DNA from: Planctomycetota bacterium
GTDB lineage: Bacteria > Planctomycetota > UBA1135
Assembly: GCA_024229395.1 (NCBI GenBank)
Contig: JAAESM010000050.1
Coordinates: forward strand, 184,043-248,042
Direction: 5' to 3'
DNA length: 64,000 nt
Positions 38,157-47,740 of the stretch are shown here, piece after piece; within the stretch, counting starts at the first letter, position 1; each line of letters opens with the position of its first letter. The notes under the pieces are model-generated. The model saw only the letters and a program-made list of their open reading frames with translations. It had not been told where the DNA came from and ran no database searches. Made by a program: the position numbers and the translations under genes.

Positions 38157-39293
38157 TTATGCCTCGAAGGCCTTCGCCGAGAATAGCGGCGCTCGTTCAG
38201 CCCCCACGGCGACCGCTGCGCCCACCGCAAGCCCGCTGATGATCATCGAGCTGCCTCCAAAGCTGACCATCGGTAGCGGCAGGCCGGTTGTTGGCCAAAC
38301 CCCCAAGGTTACGCCGACATTTAGACACAAATGCACAAGGAAATGCACGCCGATGCCGGCCAGCGTCATGCGCGTGAAGGGGTCGCGATACCTGCCGGCA
38401 AAAGCCAGCAACGAAAAGCCGAGGCTGGCATAGAGCAAGAGGAACAAAGTGGAGCCGATGAAGCCGAACTCTTCCGCCAACACCGGGAACACGAAGTCGT
38501 TATGACGTTCCGGTAGACGATCGAGGCGGTTTTGCGGCCCTTCTCCCCAACCAAGACCTGTGACACCACCGGAGCCGACCGCCATCTTTGAATGCCAAAG
38601 GTGGAAGCCACCATCAACCAATTGCTCCTGTGTGAGTTCATCCTGGTGATACCAAGTCAAGATGCGCTCCTTCTGATAATCCTGGATCACCAACCAACCA
38701 GCAGGTGCGATCAACAACGGGATCAGAAGCAACCAACGGAAGCTCCGCCAAGGAAGCCCCGCCAGCCACACCATCGACAAGAACAATGGCGCGAATACCA
38801 AAGCAGTGCCGAGGTCCGGTTCGATCAGGATCAGGAAAGCCGGCACTGCTGCCAGCAAGCCCGGTTTCCAGATATGCTCCAACTTCGAAGGGCGTGGATG
38901 ATCGGCGAACCAACGCGACAAGGTCAGGATCAACGCCAGCTTCATGAACTCGCTGGGTTGCAACTTGAAGCCAGCGGCGACGTCGATCCAGCGGCGCGAA
39001 TGATTGGTGGCGCGGCCCACGAATAACACCAGGATTAACAATACCAAAGCACCTGCATAGAACAGGAATGCCGGGTTGCGCCAATGTTTAGCACTCCACG
39101 CCACGGCCGCGAAAGCGCAAAAGCTCAACACACCTACACGTAAGACATGGCCCGACGGCAGCTGCAAGTCAGGGTCGACACTCCATTGCAAGATCACGCC
39201 GACCATGATGATGGCCGCTGTGATGGGTATGACCGGCCAACAAGTGCGGCGCAAGAAAGAGGTCAGGCGGTAGCGCAACGACGGGCCTTTCAT
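38157..39293 (-). CDS. rodA: Rod shape-determining protein RodA (SEDS glycosyltransferase)
   Basis: SRRWIDVAAGFKLQPSEFMKLALIL; LILIEPDLGTALVFAPLF; HNDFVFPVLAEEFGFIGS; GLPLPMVSFGGSSMI. Confidence 0.96.
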   Translation of the reverse strand: MKGPSLRYRLTSFLRRTCWPVIPITAAIIMVGVILQWSVDPDLQLPSGHVLRVGVLSFCAFAAVAWSAKHWRNPAFLFYAGALVLLILVLFVGRATNHSRRWIDVAAGFKLQPSEFMKLALILTLSRWFADHPRPSKLEHIWKPGLLAAVPAFLILIEPDLGTALVFAPLFLSMVWLAGLPWRSFRWLLLIPLLIAPAGWLVIQDYQKERILTWYHQDELTQEQLVDGGFHLWHSKMAVGSGGVTGLGWGEGPQNRLDRLPERHNDFVFPVLAEEFGFIGSTLFLLLYASLGFSLLAFAGRYRDPFTRMTLAGIGVHFLVHLCLNVGVTLGVWPTTGLPLPMVSFGGSSMIISGLAVGAAVAVGAERAPLFSAKAFEA

Positions 39294-41947
39294 CGTGGAG
39301 CCTCCTCGTTGCCGTTGGCGGTGTTGGATGCAGCTTCACCCAACAAAACCTTGCCTTCTTCAGTGAACAGGAATTCCTTGAGGATATACGAAGCGATCTG
39401 CCCACCATGCAATCCAGTGTTTTCACACAGGACGGCGAATGCGTAACGCGGTTGATCGGCTGGGAAGTATCCAGTGAACCAGGCGTGCGTGGGAACATTC
39501 TTGGCCACTTCAGCAGTGCCAGTCTTACCAACAATCTGCCATTCCGCTGGGAATTCGGTGCGATAAGCAGTACCACCGTTTTCGTAAACCACCGCCGACA
39601 ATGCTTCAGCGATGCGTTCACGCGTTTGCCACGAGATGTTTAACTGCGGCAAGGCTTCCACTGCTGGTGAGGCGCCTCCACTTTCCAGCACTAGCTTCGG
39701 GCGCACCAATTCTCCAGTGGCCAGCCAGCCGAAGAGACGCGCCATCTGCAAAGGACTGGCAAGCACACCGACTTGGCCGATCGAGGTTCGCATGCGCGCG
39801 AGGATATCTCGCTGCAATTCTTTCAAAGGTGCAAAGTAGTTCGCTTTCCGTTCCAAGCGCGTGGCCAGACTCAACTCATGACCGGTGCCGGACTGGGCAC
39901 TATCGAAACCGAGCTTGCTAGCAGTCTCGTGCAGGACGCCGGCGCCGAGATCGTTGCCAAGCTCATAGAAATACACGTTGCATGATTTCTTCAAGGCCTC
40001 GCGCATGTCGATCTCGCCATGGCCCGTACGTTTATCGCAATGGATCGGCTTATTGGCTGCCGAAGGCTTGATCGCGCCGGTACAGGTGTAGCGTCGATTC
40101 CAAGTGCTGGGATCCAGAGCCATCGCCGCAGCAGCCACCATTGGCTTGAAAGTCGACCCTGGATACGGCTGTTCGTTGCCGTAGTAACCACCGCCCAGAG
40201 CACGATTGCGCAACGGCGTGCCATCCCGCATATCCTTCAACTGGTCGTAGTTGTCGCGATATTCTTGGCGCGACACGTTTGGTGTACTGACCAAGACCGG
40301 CACCTCACCCGTCTCAAGATCGAGGATCACGAAACCGACCCGCTGCGCATTCGGATTGAATTGCTGCAAAGCCTTGGTGAGATTGGCGGGCCGCTGTGCA
40401 TGCAATCGCGGCACCGTATCGCGATAGACCTTAGGGATGACGCGCTCAGCAGCAGCAATCATGTTGGCATCTAGCGAAAGCTTGATATCGATGCCGTTCT
40501 GCGGTGGCGAGAACAACAGCTCCAACGGCAGTTCACCGTCGGCGCCGCCTTCCAGTTCCTGCAGATACCCACGGCTACCGCGCAACACTGGCTCATAGAC
40601 CTTCTCGATGCCCTCTTGGCCTTTGCGCTCATTGGCGGCCAAGGAATCACTCCACCACCAATCACGCAGGCGTCGGAACTCTGCCTCCTCGGCATCGGTG
40701 CGGAATAGCTGCCGGCGTAGATCCTGGAATCGCTCACGCTTGAGTTGGTCCTCGATCAGGTCATCCTCGGTGGGCAAGCGCAAAGAACCGACCACCATGC
40801 GCGCGACTTCAATCGGATACATGCGTTGCGTAACTTGCTGCAGATATAGGCCGGGATAATCGTCAGGCTGTTGCGAGAGCAGGTCGACCAGATCAAAATC
40901 GAGATCTCGCTCCAGGGCAATCACGCGCAATCGATGGATGCGGCCAGTCTGCGCGCGCAAGACGCCACTGACATCATCGAGCGCGACCACGCGCAGATGG
41001 GCAAGGACAGCCTCGATTACTTGCGCCTGCTGCAGCGGCTCCAGTTGCTGAAAGTCTTCGAAGGCTTGTTGGTCGGCACTCAAAGGTTCGCCTTCCTCGG
41101 CGATGCTGTGGCGACGAGACATAGGCGCCAACACCGTGCCGAAGTGTGCCAGAGTTCCATCCAACTCCCAGCGTTCATGCAAGTGACCAAGGATCTCTTC
41201 ACGCTGTTCGCCCGGCTTCGACAACTGTGTGCGCACCCATGAGGAAGTACTGCTGTAGACCCTAGCTGCGGCATCTTGCAGTGCAGCACGCGCGACCATC
41301 ACTTCGAGTTGCTGGCGGCGATCTTCCAGGCGCTGCAGCAAGGAGCCTGGCTCTTCGACTTCCAGCAGGCGTTCGAGGAATTGCAGGTTATGGCGCGCCT
41401 CGATAAGACTCTGATGGAAGTAGTCGCGGGCATCGGGGAAAGCGCTGGCAAAGGTGGTGTTGCCTTGATCGAACCAATCCTGCACCGCGGTGCGGCGAGC
41501 GAAACTGCGATTACCGGTCAGGCCAGTCAGGTAGAAACGCAAGTCATCCTGCAGCGGCGTATCCATGCCGGCCAAGTTCTCTGGCTTCAGCAACAAACAC
41601 CATTCGCCTAACTGCTCGCCGTTCTGCAAGCAATCGACCAAGCCAGCCTGCGGATATTCGAGCAGACGCAGGGCCTCGAGCAGCTGTGCCGCCACGAAGC
41701 CGCGGCGGAAATCGCGGTAGCGGAAGTAGAGGTCAAAAGCTTGGCGGTCGGCGGCGAGGACCGCGCCATTACGATCCAGGATGCGGCCACGTCGGAACGG
41801 GATGGTGTTCTGTCCAATCCGACTATTGCGCGCGGTCTCGGTCCAATACTCATGTTCCAACACTTGTAGCTGGAACAGGCGCGCGATCAACAGCAACAAG
41901 ACTGCCACAAACACCAAGGCAAGGCGCTGCAAACGCTGCGCTCTCAT
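39290..41947 (-). CDS. mrdA: Penicillin-binding protein 2 (elongasome transpeptidase), unusually long, 885 aa
   Basis: N-terminal TM; FRRGRILDRNGAVLAADR; catalytic YPGSTFKP (SxxK), KKSCNVYFYELG (SxN), VGKTGTAEV (KTG). ATGA overlap with rodA. Confidence 0.95.
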   Translation of the reverse strand: MRAQRLQRLALVFVAVLLLLIARLFQLQVLEHEYWTETARNSRIGQNTIPFRRGRILDRNGAVLAADRQAFDLYFRYRDFRRGFVAAQLLEALRLLEYPQAGLVDCLQNGEQLGEWCLLLKPENLAGMDTPLQDDLRFYLTGLTGNRSFARRTAVQDWFDQGNTTFASAFPDARDYFHQSLIEARHNLQFLERLLEVEEPGSLLQRLEDRRQQLEVMVARAALQDAAARVYSSTSSWVRTQLSKPGEQREEILGHLHERWELDGTLAHFGTVLAPMSRRHSIAEEGEPLSADQQAFEDFQQLEPLQQAQVIEAVLAHLRVVALDDVSGVLRAQTGRIHRLRVIALERDLDFDLVDLLSQQPDDYPGLYLQQVTQRMYPIEVARMVVGSLRLPTEDDLIEDQLKRERFQDLRRQLFRTDAEEAEFRRLRDWWWSDSLAANERKGQEGIEKVYEPVLRGSRGYLQELEGGADGELPLELLFSPPQNGIDIKLSLDANMIAAAERVIPKVYRDTVPRLHAQRPANLTKALQQFNPNAQRVGFVILDLETGEVPVLVSTPNVSRQEYRDNYDQLKDMRDGTPLRNRALGGGYYGNEQPYPGSTFKPMVAAAAMALDPSTWNRRYTCTGAIKPSAANKPIHCDKRTGHGEIDMREALKKSCNVYFYELGNDLGAGVLHETASKLGFDSAQSGTGHELSLATRLERKANYFAPLKELQRDILARMRTSIGQVGVLASPLQMARLFGWLATGELVRPKLVLESGGASPAVEALPQLNISWQTRERIAEALSAVVYENGGTAYRTEFPAEWQIVGKTGTAEVAKNVPTHAWFTGYFPADQPRYAFAVLCENTGLHGGQIASYILKEFLFTEEGKVLLGEAASNTANGNEEAPR

Positions 41948-42435
41948 GAACGTCCCCTACTGAAGGCTTTCTTCTTCAACTGCGGACGAGTGAACAGGGC
42001 GACCAACAAACCAACCGAAAGGCAACGCATCCACACGTCGGCGCCGTCTAGTGGTGTGCCAAGTCGCTCGGCAACCAGGCGATCCAACACCGTCAACGGG
42101 ATGGCGGCGCAGAAACCGGTCAGGAAACGCGGCAGGAATCGATATTCATTCAAACGCCGCGACAGGGCTTCGCGCACGAAAAGCGCCGCTCCCAATCCGC
42201 CCCATGCCACGAAGGGTGAGACCACGGTCACGCTGCTGCGCAATAGACCAAATAGGAAGACCAGCTGGATCGGGCGCCGCCAGGAATCGGGGGCTGGCAC
42301 CGGCACCGCCAGCAACAACATCAGCAACCATAGATCAGGGAAACCACTACCGCCGGGCAACAAGCGCAACATAGGCGAGAAGATTGTCAGCAGGATCGCC
42401 ACCGGCACAATGATGCGAAGACGTGGTGTTCTCAT
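41944..42435 (-). CDS. mreD: Rod shape-determining protein MreD
   Basis: Small polytopic protein in the conserved position between mreC and mrdA with 4-nt overlaps. Confidence 0.8.
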   Translation of the reverse strand: MRTPRLRIIVPVAILLTIFSPMLRLLPGGSGFPDLWLLMLLLAVPVPAPDSWRRPIQLVFLFGLLRSSVTVVSPFVAWGGLGAALFVREALSRRLNEYRFLPRFLTGFCAAIPLTVLDRLVAERLGTPLDGADVWMRCLSVGLLVALFTRPQLKKKAFSRGRS

Positions 42436-43625
42436 TGCGTTTCTCCCACAACATCATCCGCTTGCACGATGACAGTCAAGGCCGACGACGGCAACCGTGC
42501 CGCTTGATCGCGAAAGCCCAACCACAAACCGCGCGGCACTCCGTGGCCACCACGTGTAAACAATGGCAAGGCCTGTTCTGCCTGTTGCCAATCGGTGCAG
42601 TCCAGTACCGAACTACTTTCTGCGTGCAGAGCTACCGCGCGCCCTTGCCAACTGGAAGGTTCAGCAATGCGGAACCAGCCCCAGTTGCCGCGCCAACTGC
42701 TGCACCAACCACCGACCTGGCCTTGATCGGCATAGACTGCCGGCTTGATGCTGGTATCGGCGGCAATCGCACACCAACCACTCCCCAGCACCGCATCATC
42801 CAGCAGTAAACGGCGAGCTTCTGTACGGACCTGCAAGGGCTCTGCCACAAGGCGTTCCCCGACCGCGCTGGCGGCGACGTAGAGGCGGCCCTCTGCAGCT
42901 GCAGGCAAATCACCATCGATGGTCCAGACCGCTGTGCCGCGCTGTTCGTCGCCATCCCGCTGGGCTTGACCCAAACGCAACTTGGCCGCGTGCAAGTTCG
43001 GAGGATCCAACGGCCGCGACCGCCAAGTCAGCACCTGCCCTTCGGAAATGTGATCGGCCTCTTGCAGCCATGGCAATACGGCTGGACCAGCACGCCCCCT
43101 CCCCAAGCTCACTGCTTTACTGGTGACACCCATCTCATCCTTCAGCAACACTCCCGTGCGCACGTTCGGTGCCGTCACCAACTCGACCACGGCTTGATGG
43201 GCACTGACATCGGTGACCCGCCCTAAGTAGCGATCGCCATAAGCCACGACTTGGCCACTGGCGATATGGAAGTCCGAACCAGCCGCCAAAGTTATGCGCC
43301 CCACCTCTGGATCGAGCGACAGGACTGGCACTTCCAGCCACTCCATGCCGGGCAGTGGTTCGGGTTTGCCCAAGCGTCGCTCCATCTCCACCAACACCGA
43401 ATGATCTAAGGTCTGCAGACTGTTGGCGGGCTCGGCAGTAGGCAAGACTATTTCGGAGGCCGCAGCACTCAGTTCTGCGATCGGTCGAGTCAGCGGCCCA
43501 AACAAACGATTGCAGCCATCCTCAAGCGGTTGCCATGGCAACACCGCCTGCACAATCAGCACCACGATTACCCCAGCGCAGAACATCACCCGCCGGTAGC
43601 GCTCGGCCCCTGGCAGCAAAAACAC
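42432..43625 (-). CDS. mreC: Rod shape-determining protein MreC with long C-terminal extension
   Basis: One N-terminal TM, MreC beta domain (VLSLDPEVGRITLAAGSDFHIASGQVVAYGDRYLGRVTDVSAHQAVVELVTAPNVRTGVLL), position in the mreBCD order. Confidence 0.85.
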   Translation of the reverse strand: MFLLPGAERYRRVMFCAGVIVVLIVQAVLPWQPLEDGCNRLFGPLTRPIAELSAAASEIVLPTAEPANSLQTLDHSVLVEMERRLGKPEPLPGMEWLEVPVLSLDPEVGRITLAAGSDFHIASGQVVAYGDRYLGRVTDVSAHQAVVELVTAPNVRTGVLLKDEMGVTSKAVSLGRGRAGPAVLPWLQEADHISEGQVLTWRSRPLDPPNLHAAKLRLGQAQRDGDEQRGTAVWTIDGDLPAAAEGRLYVAASAVGERLVAEPLQVRTEARRLLLDDAVLGSGWCAIAADTSIKPAVYADQGQVGGWCSSWRGNWGWFRIAEPSSWQGRAVALHAESSSVLDCTDWQQAEQALPLFTRGGHGVPRGLWLGFRDQAARLPSSALTVIVQADDVVGETQ

Positions 43626-43643: not shown

Positions 43644-44696
43644 CTAGGCCAGGTCCTCGCCGTCGGAAAGGAAGGTCGCGTACAGGTCCAAGTCCTCGAG
43701 GAACTTAGCAGTGCCGCGCGCAACTGCAGTGAGTGGTTCCGAATCGATGGCACAAGGCAGGCCAGTGCTCTTGGAAACATATTGATCCAAGCCTGGCAAC
43801 AACGCGCCACCACCAACGATGGTGATTCCTTGTTCGAGCAGGTCCGAACCGATTTCCGGTGGAGCCATCTCGAGGCAGTCCAACACCGCACGCATGATGC
43901 CGCGCAACGGCGTATCCAAGGCATCGCGGATCTCCTCAGAATTGAGCACCAACTTCCGTGGCATCAAGTTCAAGGAATCGCGACCAGCGACCTCGATGGT
44001 CTTTTCGCTATCCAACGCCCAAGCCGAACCAATGGTCTTCTTGACCAGCTCCGCGGTCAGTGGACCGATCTGCAAGTTGTGGGTCTTGCGCACGAAATCG
44101 ACGATGGCGTCGTCCATGTTGTCGCCAGCGACCTTTACCGATTTGACCGTGACTGGACCACCAAGTGCAAGAATGGCGACCTCTGTGGTACCACCACCGA
44201 TGTCGACCACCATCGAACCTTGTGCTTCGGTAATCGGCAACTCCACACCAAGGCCTGCGGCCATAGGCTCATCGACCAAGTAGACCTTGCGCGCGCCAGC
44301 ACGTTCGGCCGAATTGATCACAGCGCGACGCTCCACAGTAGTGATTCCGGAAGGCACCGAGATCACCACGCGCGGGCGAACCCAGGAGCGACCTTCATGA
44401 GCCTTGCGCAAGAAATAGCGCAGCAACTTCTCGGTGATCTCGAAGTCTGCAATCACACCACCCTTCAAAGGGCGCACTGCTTCGATATTGGTTGGCGTCT
44501 TGCCGAGCATGCGGTAGGCCTCGTCGCCGACTCCCATGCCATCAAGGATCACCTCATTGGTGCCTTTGTACACCGCGACCACAGAGGGTTCATCAAGCAG
44601 GATGCCGCGATCCTGAGAGGCCACCAGCGTATTTGCTGTGCCTAAATCGATGCCGAGATCTTCGGACAAGGAAAACCGACGGAAAAGCCAATCCAT
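43644..44696 (-). CDS. mreB: Rod shape-determining protein MreB (bacterial actin)
   Basis: LGIDLGTANTLV, RPLKGGVIADFEITEKLLRYFL, VISVPSGITTVERRAV, LVDEPMAAGLG, MVVDIGGGTTEVAIL. Confidence 0.97.
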   Translation of the reverse strand: MDWLFRRFSLSEDLGIDLGTANTLVASQDRGILLDEPSVVAVYKGTNEVILDGMGVGDEAYRMLGKTPTNIEAVRPLKGGVIADFEITEKLLRYFLRKAHEGRSWVRPRVVISVPSGITTVERRAVINSAERAGARKVYLVDEPMAAGLGVELPITEAQGSMVVDIGGGTTEVAILALGGPVTVKSVKVAGDNMDDAIVDFVRKTHNLQIGPLTAELVKKTIGSAWALDSEKTIEVAGRDSLNLMPRKLVLNSEEIRDALDTPLRGIMRAVLDCLEMAPPEIGSDLLEQGITIVGGGALLPGLDQYVSKSTGLPCAIDSEPLTAVARGTAKFLEDLDLYATFLSDGEDLA

Positions 44697-44777: not shown

Positions 44778-44820
44778 CCAAAAAGGAGAAGGTCGCCCCC
44801 CATTGAGGGACGACCTTCTT
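44778..44820 (-). terminator. Terminator after the Lys-rich/coiled-coil gene pair
   Basis: Minus-strand GAAGGTCG...CGACCTTC stem with extra G/C pairs, then TCCTTTTTGG. Confidence 0.7.
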
Positions 44821-44840: not shown

Positions 44841-45098
44841 CTACTCAGAAGCCTCGTAACCGTCCTTGAACATCATGCCGGAACCAAACTGGTGGCCCTT
44901 TGCATAATCGACCAGGACGAGAGCGGCAATCATCATGATGCCGGTCACAATGCTCATGACGACCTCGATTGGAGGGCCTGGGCTTACTTCCTTAGGCTCC
45001 TTGGCTGCCTTAGCCTTCTTTGGCTTAGCCGCTTTGGCCCTCTTACCGCCACCCTTAGGTGCGGCTTTCTTTGCGTTCTTACGACGTGCTGCCATCAA
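44841..45098 (-). CDS. Small Lys/Ala-rich, single-TM protein (85 aa; start 45098 or 45095)
   Basis: MMAARRKNAKKAAPKGGGKRAKAAKPKKAKAAKEPKEVSPGPP then hydrophobic IEVVMSIVTGIMMIAALVLVDYA; tight spacing (8 nt) to the upstream gene and downstream terminator. Confidence 0.8.
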   Translation of the reverse strand: MMAARRKNAKKAAPKGGGKRAKAAKPKKAKAAKEPKEVSPGPPIEVVMSIVTGIMMIAALVLVDYAKGHQFGSGMMFKDGYEASE

Positions 45099-45106
45099 TC
45101 AGCTCC

Positions 45107-45961
45107 TTACAGGCGAGTGGTGACACGGTCGCCGGAAGCGATCATGCCGTTACCAGCCATCTCCAGCGTTGCTGCAGACTTGGACTCGTTGACGGTTTGA
45201 ACGTAGATCTGCCCCTTGTAGGTCGAACCGTTGTAGACATCGTAGGTGAAGCCTGGCTGCACGGAATCATGCTTGCCAAGGTTGATAACGACGTAGGTGG
45301 TGCCTTCGACGGTGTCGACGCTCAACACGGAGCCTTCCATTTGAGGCTGTGCACCGATGCTTTGCAGGTCAACCTTGTAAAGGCTCACGACAGTCTGAAG
45401 CTTGGCTTCTGCGACTGCTGCGCGCTCCTCGGAGCGTGCCAGCTGCAGAGCGAGGTCGGTTGCGCGACCTTCAGCCATGTTCATGGAATCGGTTGCCGAG
45501 TTGGCGGTGGAGTTCGCAGCGTCGCGTGCATCCAGTGCATCGTCGCGCTCTTCACGTACCTTCTCGTACTGGTTGCGAACACTATCCAGGTCGCTTGCCA
45601 GTTGGCCGTTGGTGCCTTCTAGATCACTCAGCTTACCTTCGATGCCAGTAAGACTTTCGCGCTGGTCAGCGTTCTGCTGGCGCTCGGTCTCAAGGCTCTC
45701 GGTAAGAGCGGTCTTCTCAGCATTCAGGTTGCTGTTGTCAGCAAGTAGACGCTGGGACTCAAGAACAGCTTGATCGCGTTGGCTTGCCATTTTCTCTTTC
45801 TCTTCAGAAAGGGAAGTTTCAAGGTCAGCCTTAGCTTGGACTTCTGTCTCATACTGCTTACGGTAGCTGTCGCTTTCTCCAATCAAGGAGGCAGACACGC
45901 CCACGAAGAGCGCTGCTAGTGCAAGGTTTAGGACAACGAAAAATTTTCCGATGGTACTCAT
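45107..45961 (-). CDS. TM-anchored coiled-coil protein with C-terminal MreC-like beta domain
   Basis: N-terminal TM (FFVVLNLALAALFVGVSASLI), ~170-residue coiled coil, C-terminal EGSVLSVDTVEGTTYVVINLGKHDSVQPGFTYDVYNGSTYKGQIYVQTVNESKSAATLEMAGNGMIASGDRV. Confidence 0.8.
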   Translation of the reverse strand: MSTIGKFFVVLNLALAALFVGVSASLIGESDSYRKQYETEVQAKADLETSLSEEKEKMASQRDQAVLESQRLLADNSNLNAEKTALTESLETERQQNADQRESLTGIEGKLSDLEGTNGQLASDLDSVRNQYEKVREERDDALDARDAANSTANSATDSMNMAEGRATDLALQLARSEERAAVAEAKLQTVVSLYKVDLQSIGAQPQMEGSVLSVDTVEGTTYVVINLGKHDSVQPGFTYDVYNGSTYKGQIYVQTVNESKSAATLEMAGNGMIASGDRVTTRL

Positions 45962-46066: not shown

Positions 46067-46095
46067 AATCTATCTATGCCCCCGCAAAGGGTCAA
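46067..46095 (-). promoter_or_regulatory. Candidate sigma-70-like promoter of the coiled-coil/Lys-rich operon
   Basis: Minus strand TTGACC-N17-TAGATT in the intergenic gap downstream of lnt. Confidence 0.5.
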
Positions 46096-46108: not shown

Positions 46109-47740
46109 TTAACCATCAGTTGGCTGTGCCGCGGCCACCTGACGCTTGCGGCCAAACAGGCTAATTAGCCCAATAAATGCCGTACATAGGGTCCAAAGAG
46201 GCAGCAATGCCCACCCCCAACTGCGGTAGGCCGTAGCGGTCCCGGAGCTTGGAGCGATTGGCAAATCAGCCTGCCACCATGAAATTTCTCCGGGCGCGGG
46301 GCCTAAATCGACACTGCCGTCGGGGTAAACCAGACAGGTTTGACCAGTATTGGTGCACCGAAGGATGGCTAAACCGCTCTCGAGGGCCCGCAATCGGGTG
46401 GCAGAGACCATTTGATCCATCTCAATGCCGTCGTAACCGAACCAATCCTCGTTGGATAAAATCACAAAGGCCTGGGCACCATCGTCTGCCTGGCTGCGAA
46501 AAGCGCTTTCAAACACGTTTTCCCAGCAAACTGCGCCGCCAAGCCGTGGTAATTGGCCCGTAGCCTGCAGCGGACCGGTCTGCTCGGTGCGACCGAAGTC
46601 TGGGCGTAGACCAAAAGTGCGATGCGCCCAGCGCACGAAGCCGGCGCTTCCGGGAAGGGCCCCTCCCATAGGTAGGCTCTCGCCAAACGGCACCAGCTCC
46701 TGCTTCGAGAAGTGCTGGATCAGGCTGCCGTAGCGGTCAAACAGCACGAACTCGGTGTTGCGCGGCGAATACTCGCCGTCGGGGGCGCTGGCTGCTACTG
46801 GATAGTAGAAATGCGCGCCGGTCAGGAAGTACACCGGACGCTCAGGCGGATTGGTGGCCAGCTCCAAGGCCACTTTGACCATGGTCTTTTGGCGTGTGCG
46901 AACCGTTTCCATGCTGTGTACCTCATTCGGCAATCCAGCCCAAGGCCGACGCATCTCGCCGACGGCCTCCTCTTCCACGCCCGGGAATGGCCACATGGTT
47001 TCGGCCCACAGGAGTAAATCAGGTTGCACCCCCGCCTCAAAGGCTGAGTCGGTGACCTCCATCTGGACCTTGAAGAAATCCGACGCCGACAGGATGCGGT
47101 TTTTGTCCTCTACTCTTACAACCGGCTGAATGCTCAGGCAGCTCAGCGTGCTCTCGGCCTGGACAGGTGGTCGATGCATGACCAGCGCGACGATCAACAA
47201 CACGATCGCCGGAATGGCCAAGGTCTTAGATGCTTGGCCGATTACCACCAACAGCAAGGCACCACCGAAACTCGCGAACAACACCAGCCCCGATTCGCCG
47301 AGCACGTCCGCAAGCGCGATCAATGGCGAGGACTCCAGTGCGAAACCGAGCGACGCCCATGGAACCCCTCCTACCAAGAGGTAGAACCAAGTCATGCGGA
47401 TGTACTCCGCTGCAGGCAGGGCAAACATGGCGGCTAGATGACTGGAAAGACGGCGACTCAGCAAGCGATAGAGCAGACCTTCGACGAACCAACAACTACC
47501 CAAGATGAAGGCGGCGCCGACTGGTGCGAGCGGATGCACATGCACCAAGAAAACGAAGGACAAGCCCCAAAACACCACCCCAGCTAGATAGTCGAACCAA
47601 AGATTCGATTTGCGTTGCCACCCGACATAGCGCAGGGCCACCGCCACGAAGATCAGCGGCCAGCCCCAACCGCCGAGCCAGCCGGGCATTGCCACGGCGC
47701 GGCACAGGGCAGCTAGAAGGTAGAAGAGCCAGGTAGGCAC
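46109..47740 (-). CDS. lnt: Apolipoprotein N-acyltransferase
   Basis: Polytopic N-terminus plus nitrilase domain with Glu (LLWAETMWPFP), Lys (FSKQELVPFGE), Cys (GGAVCWENVF). Confidence 0.93.
   Translation of the reverse strand: MPTWLFYLLAALCRAVAMPGWLGGWGWPLIFVAVALRYVGWQRKSNLWFDYLAGVVFWGLSFVFLVHVHPLAPVGAAFILGSCWFVEGLLYRLLSRRLSSHLAAMFALPAAEYIRMTWFYLLVGGVPWASLGFALESSPLIALADVLGESGLVLFASFGGALLLVVIGQASKTLAIPAIVLLIVALVMHRPPVQAESTLSCLSIQPVVRVEDKNRILSASDFFKVQMEVTDSAFEAGVQPDLLLWAETMWPFPGVEEEAVGEMRRPWAGLPNEVHSMETVRTRQKTMVKVALELATNPPERPVYFLTGAHFYYPVAASAPDGEYSPRNTEFVLFDRYGSLIQHFSKQELVPFGESLPMGGALPGSAGFVRWAHRTFGLRPDFGRTEQTGPLQATGQLPRLGGAVCWENVFESAFRSQADDGAQAFVILSNEDWFGYDGIEMDQMVSATRLRALESGLAILRCTNTGQTCLVYPDGSVDLGPAPGEISWWQADLPIAPSSGTATAYRSWGWALLPLWTLCTAFIGLISLFGRKRQVAAAQPTDG

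Follow-up and report, generated by a model that had tools for sequence, protein, structure and literature searches.

What do two unnamed genes placed between lnt and the rod-shape genes contribute to a planctomycete cell? What organizes the envelope of the Planctomycetota is an open question: members of the phylum have no FtsZ and no detectable RodZ, divide in an unusual manner, and one species tested can spare most of its wall genes (PMC5147048, PMC6952346, PMC10632474). In Planctopirus limnophila, mreB, ftsI and ftsW are dispensable (PMC6952346); most genes for peptidoglycan (PG) synthesis are non-essential in this organism, and 108 of its essential proteins are of unknown function and specific to Planctomycetes (PMC10632474). 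The stretch of DNA analysed here (64,000 nucleotides from a member of the phylum, hereafter the window) carries on its minus strand a gene for a bitopic coiled-coil protein (CC) and, directly behind it, a gene for a small bitopic protein, the two lying between lnt and mreBCD-PBP2-rodA (Table 1). A search of the open literature returned no description of this pair. An earlier sequence-only reading had proposed an accessory elongasome or a nucleoid-to-membrane tethering module.

Table 1. Features of the locus, in positions of the window.
Feature	Positions	Strand	Basis or remark
rodA	38157..39293	(-)	Pfam scan
PBP2/mrdA	39290..41947	(-)	Pfam scan
Membrane protein at the MreD position	41944..42435	(-)	position; no Pfam match
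True mreC	42432..43625	(-)	PF04085, over cut-off
mreB	43644..44696	(-)	PF06723, 418 bits
Intrinsic terminator, gap from small gene to mreB	44787..44819	(-)	strong: 15 pairs, 3-nt loop, T run
Small bitopic partner protein	44841..45095	(-)	ORF, 84 aa, ATG start
Single TM helix of small protein, residues 43-62	44910..44969	(-)	
Lys/Ala/Pro-rich N-terminal tail of small protein	44970..45095	(-)	specific to the window's family
Shine-Dalgarno AAGGAG of small gene	45103..45108	(-)	overlaps CC stop codon
CC gene	45107..45961	(-)	ORF; 284-aa bitopic coiled-coil protein with C-terminal beta-barrel
CC six-stranded small beta-barrel, residues 205-284	45110..45349	(-)	sequence FlgT_C-like, fold MreC-like
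CC coiled coil, residues 33-195	45377..45865	(-)	period-3.5 signal, near-invariant length
CC N-terminal TM anchor, residues 7-27	45881..45943	(-)	conservation
Candidate sigma-70-type promoter, lnt-CC gap	46067..46095	(-)	modest, 9/12 matches
lnt, upstream neighbour	46109..47740	(-)	Pfam/NCBIfam scan

Gene layout and conservation

The open reading frame and an AlphaFold2 model bear out the description of CC as a protein with one transmembrane (TM) segment, a long coil and a C-terminal beta domain. The small protein, given previously as 85 residues beginning 8 nt downstream, most likely starts instead at ATG 45095 behind AAGGAG, which leaves 84 residues and an 11-nt gap after the CC stop codon; the longer version corresponds to an alternative TTG start one codon earlier. 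The terminator claimed for the pair is present, as is the promoter as a candidate site, and the mreB cluster does follow downstream. Scans of Pfam and NCBIfam place neither protein in a named family, in agreement with the first reading, and the many weak matches to the pair are mostly generic coiled-coil matches. Two neighbours merit separate mention. The protein at the MreD position is a membrane protein of 163 residues with no Pfam match; MreD was reportedly not detected in the proteomes of PVC bacteria (PMC5147048). The PBP2 of the window has 885 residues, with its PBP_dimer match stretched over residues 50-463, which suggests a large insertion.

An orthologue of CC, mostly full-length, was found in 57 of 61 relatives, and comparison with genome G005 gave dN/dS values of about 0.14 for CC and about 0.17 for the small gene, indicative of purifying selection. 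Values of about 0.15, together with orthologues across the phylum, rule out spurious reading frames, and we regard it as virtually certain that the pair is a real conserved unit. Of the 294 Planctomycetota genomes sampled, 289 were matched by a CC profile of 86 rows at E<=1e-6 and about 255 with an E below 1e-18, the weaker matches probably being cross-matches to other coiled coils. Spread beyond the phylum was judged from one scan of GTDB genomes with N-terminal patterns, in which the 43 relatives recovered were titled either Planctomycetota or unclassified 'bacterium'. The pair is best read as a phylum-wide and unnamed module of the Planctomycetota, probably of the inner membrane.

Within the window's taxonomic order, the arrangement MoeA-Lnt-CC-small-MreB-(MreC-MreD)-PBP2-RodA is the rule, with mreB directly downstream of CC on the same strand in 48 of 50 loci and the remaining two ending at contig edges. 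Among phylum-wide loci taken one per family (representatives picked by strongest CC match), CC lies directly upstream of mreB in 33 of 40, several of the others being short contigs; the placement beside mreB first noticed in the window is thus conserved well outside it. Families with weak CC matches contributed twenty mreB loci, which divided evenly, ten with CC directly upstream and ten without. The pair lies apart from mreB in families f17 and f30 and in the majority of the f32 genomes examined, and in two f49 loci (L199, L200) the order is MoeA-Lnt-MreB, where lnt runs straight into mreB and the pair is cleanly missing.

Several variants were also encountered. At L077 (G002), CC is split over two frames (residues 1-96 and 107-284), which reflects a frameshift or an assembly error. 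Three f32 loci (L246:6253-6927, L248:6705-7370, L250:6266-6949) carry, directly upstream of CC, a protein of 220 residues with the N-terminal TM motif of CC that is likely a paralogue. A second planctomycete family of ~500 residues (L262:1022-2530 (+), L263, L265:968-2431 (+), L266) shares the TM segment, coil and FlgT_C-like barrel of CC and carries a further domain of some 150 residues at its C terminus.

The small partner protein

In 108 of 118 loci the next reading frame after CC encodes a single-TM protein of 40-190 residues. Such a frame trails control genes rarely or never (MreB 0/101, PBP2 0/65, RodA 1/65, Lnt 1/57, MoeA 1/59); the 8 of 18 found behind MreC come from an unclean control, as a membrane protein normally comes next there. 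An overlap of 20-26 nt between the small gene and the CC stop, present in several lineages, suggests that the two genes are translationally coupled, and in many lineages a YGxGxF-like tail comes after the TM segment.

The N-terminal tail was the basis for the proposal of a nucleoid-to-membrane tether, in which a Lys-rich, histone H1-like segment would bind DNA and the pair would anchor the chromosome to the envelope. Within the family of the window, this tail does carry a net charge of +6 to +16 and Lys/Ala/Pro repeats. The module is otherwise unchanged in other families, but there the tail is short, and its charge is neutral, acidic or only mildly basic (about -10 to +6). The predicted cytoplasmic tail is lineage-variable, and with its Lys-rich form confined to one family the general argument for DNA binding falls away. 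A histone-like tether was rejected on these grounds, and we consider tethering of the nucleoid very improbable indeed as the role of the pair.

Architecture and kinship of the coiled-coil protein

The full AlphaFold2 model of CC (pLDDT 86) comprises a helix over residues 3-195 and six strands over residues 209-281, and the beta domain modeled in isolation reaches a pLDDT of 93.5. Hydrophobic periodicity in the coil peaks at 3.5 residues, at 2.7 versus 1.0 in shuffled coils, and a fully helical segment from residue 33 to 195 is calculated to extend ~24 nm. Given the short N terminus and the single TM segment, the coil would lie in the periplasm. The length of the protein is tightly held: 117 divergent sequences average 284.7 residues (sd 3.1, range 274-298), and this constancy persists as identity to the window CC drops to 15-20%. 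For MreC in the same loci the sd is 71, but the comparison is only rough, since truncated contigs are included. The most conserved parts are the N-terminal TM segment and the beta domain, with Met1, Ser2, Gly5, Phe8, Asn12 and Gly21 standing out at the N terminus along with a GKxFxVxN motif; within the coil few residues do so, among them Ala142 and Ala149, one heptad apart. A sequence search of the PDB with the CC alignment returned generic coiled coils only (myosin, tropomyosin, crescentin).

The resemblance to MreC that had been noted at the outset holds for layout and fold and fails for sequence kinship. Compared by structure with the PDB, the full model matches Listeria MreC best (2j5u, E 8.7e-4), and FlgT (3w1e) comes at rank 18. 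Compared on its own with Foldseek, the C-terminal barrel also ranks MreC first (7eft), at an E of only 7e-3 and thus above 1e-3. The same search returned FlgT 3w1e and the barrels of V-ATPase, alanine racemase and riboflavin synthase, and several TM-scores exceed that of MreC, so that a match in fold alone is no proof of kinship. In sequence, the window CC has no match to PF04085 at E<=1, whereas the neighboring mreC product does, and hhalign of the barrel against two MreC alignments gave probabilities of 44% and 4%. A paralogue of MreC was considered and rejected, given the missing PF04085 match and an hhalign probability of 44% that covers only 28 columns. CC is not an MreC, although its layout and fold are MreC-like.

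Sequence points elsewhere. Across 47 homologue barrel domains, the Pfam family FlgT_C matched 32 (best 6e-8) and MreC matched six, weakly (best 0.016), and FlgT_C is the only family other than coiled coils to match the barrel repeatedly. FlgT docks in the Vibrio flagellar H ring, and by analogy the pair could belong to another trans-envelope machine, with the FlgT_C-like barrel of CC binding to a ring or channel in the periplasm; the appearance of 3w1e among the structural matches might also indicate this. However, the CC members scanned in detail fall below the Pfam cut-off (the window barrel at E 0.14, with 13.1 of 27 bits), the N-terminal and middle domains of FlgT are absent, and no flagellar or secretion gene recurs in the neighborhoods surveyed around the pair. 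We hold such a docking role to be improbable.

Relation to the elongasome

A more serious contender is that the two proteins are dedicated elongasome subunits, which replace RodZ or supplement MreC and link MreB filaments to PBP2 and RodA across the membrane. The tight placement between lnt and mreBCD-PBP2-rodA over most of the phylum is in keeping with this, as is the MreC-like fold of CC. So too is the lack of RodZ: a profile search for RodZ_C was negative in all 119 genomes with six controls positive, in agreement with the absence reported in PMC5147048. HTH_25 elsewhere in the genomes gave weak and often partial matches, and it rings in archaeal controls as well. The pair itself contains neither HTH_25 nor RodZ_C in Pfam and NCBIfam scans, and together with the RodZ_C result this led us to reject the identification of either protein as RodZ.

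Four planctomycete genomes at 99% completeness bear most directly on this alternative. In profile searches, three of them (G219, G254, G316) have no MreB, no SEDS and only sub-cut-off MraY-like matches, and the fourth (G176) has a divergent MreB, no SEDS and no bona fide MraY; as judged by these searches, PG synthesis appears to be absent from all four. Each nonetheless keeps a full-length CC with the small TM gene directly behind it, and G254, which has no mreB, still shows the order MoeA-Lnt-CC-small. Retention of the pair where wall synthesis is unrecognizable makes wall synthesis an unlikely core function. Conversely, genomes of families f49 and f78 retain MreB, SEDS and MraY but lack a convincing CC, which argues that the function of the pair is replaceable. 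The co-loss that dependence on MreB or the PG machinery would predict is not observed, and retention without SEDS and MraY, combined with loss where both are present, means that an accessory elongasome, a proposal that fits the placement beside mreB, cannot be the whole function. The unlinking from mreB in f32, f17 and f30 speaks against dedicated subunits as well, and the only part of the pair that might face MreB, the cytoplasmic tail of the small protein, is unconserved. We regard the elongasome explanation as doubtful, if the strongest of the alternatives.

A proposed spacer of the planctomycete envelope

The explanation we prefer, to which we would assign a probability of about 0.5, is that the pair forms a fixed-length periplasmic spacer or scaffold of the planctomycete envelope. 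CC would be held in the inner membrane by its conserved N-terminal TM segment and, presumably as a homodimer, would project into the periplasm a ~24-nm coil of near-constant length that ends in the barrel. The small protein may pack against the conserved TM segment of CC, its lineage-reshaped tail facing the cytoplasm, and together the two could set or sense the geometry of the periplasm. It is reasonable to postulate that the pair ancestrally worked beside the rod-shape machinery while its core function is independent of MreB and PG synthesis, and that in rod-shape lineages it may also couple to MreB. Interaction with a fixed partner, and not a role as spacer, can also account for the constant length of CC. 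Only tentatively would we extend the proposed spacer to a near-universal envelope system, in which a 24-nm coiled-coil ruler and its membrane partner operate independently of PG and are separable from the mre genes.

The pair occurs in most members of the phylum, is strongly constrained in length and persists in genomes whose wall synthesis can no longer be recognized; it looks like a basic and unstudied part of the planctomycete envelope. It is a concrete candidate for an organizer of that envelope, and one that is approachable in the genetically tractable P. limnophila.

Comparison with known systems

CC shares with MreC (PF04085) an N-terminal TM segment, a coiled coil, a C-terminal small beta-barrel and membership of the same gene cluster. 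It differs in having one barrel (residues 209-281 of the AlphaFold2 model) where MreC has two, in its coil of about 160 residues, in lying beside a separate true mreC, and in being retained without recognizable PG synthesis. With the C-terminal domain of FlgT (PF16538) the CC barrel shares the motif VxINxGxxDGVxxGxxFxV...GxIxV...GDxV; in place of the other two FlgT domains, which Pfam scans do not find in it, CC has a TM segment and a coiled coil. With RodZ undetected in the phylum, the pair would fill its place as a bitopic linker close to mreB, but the small protein has no HTH_25, RodZ_C is lacking, and there is no dependence on MreB. Compared by layout rather than by sequence, CC resembles Lpp, OmpM, SlpA, TolA and the lambda spanins in having a coiled coil that could reach across the periplasm, and is set apart from them by its probable anchor in the inner membrane and by the beta-barrel at its tip.
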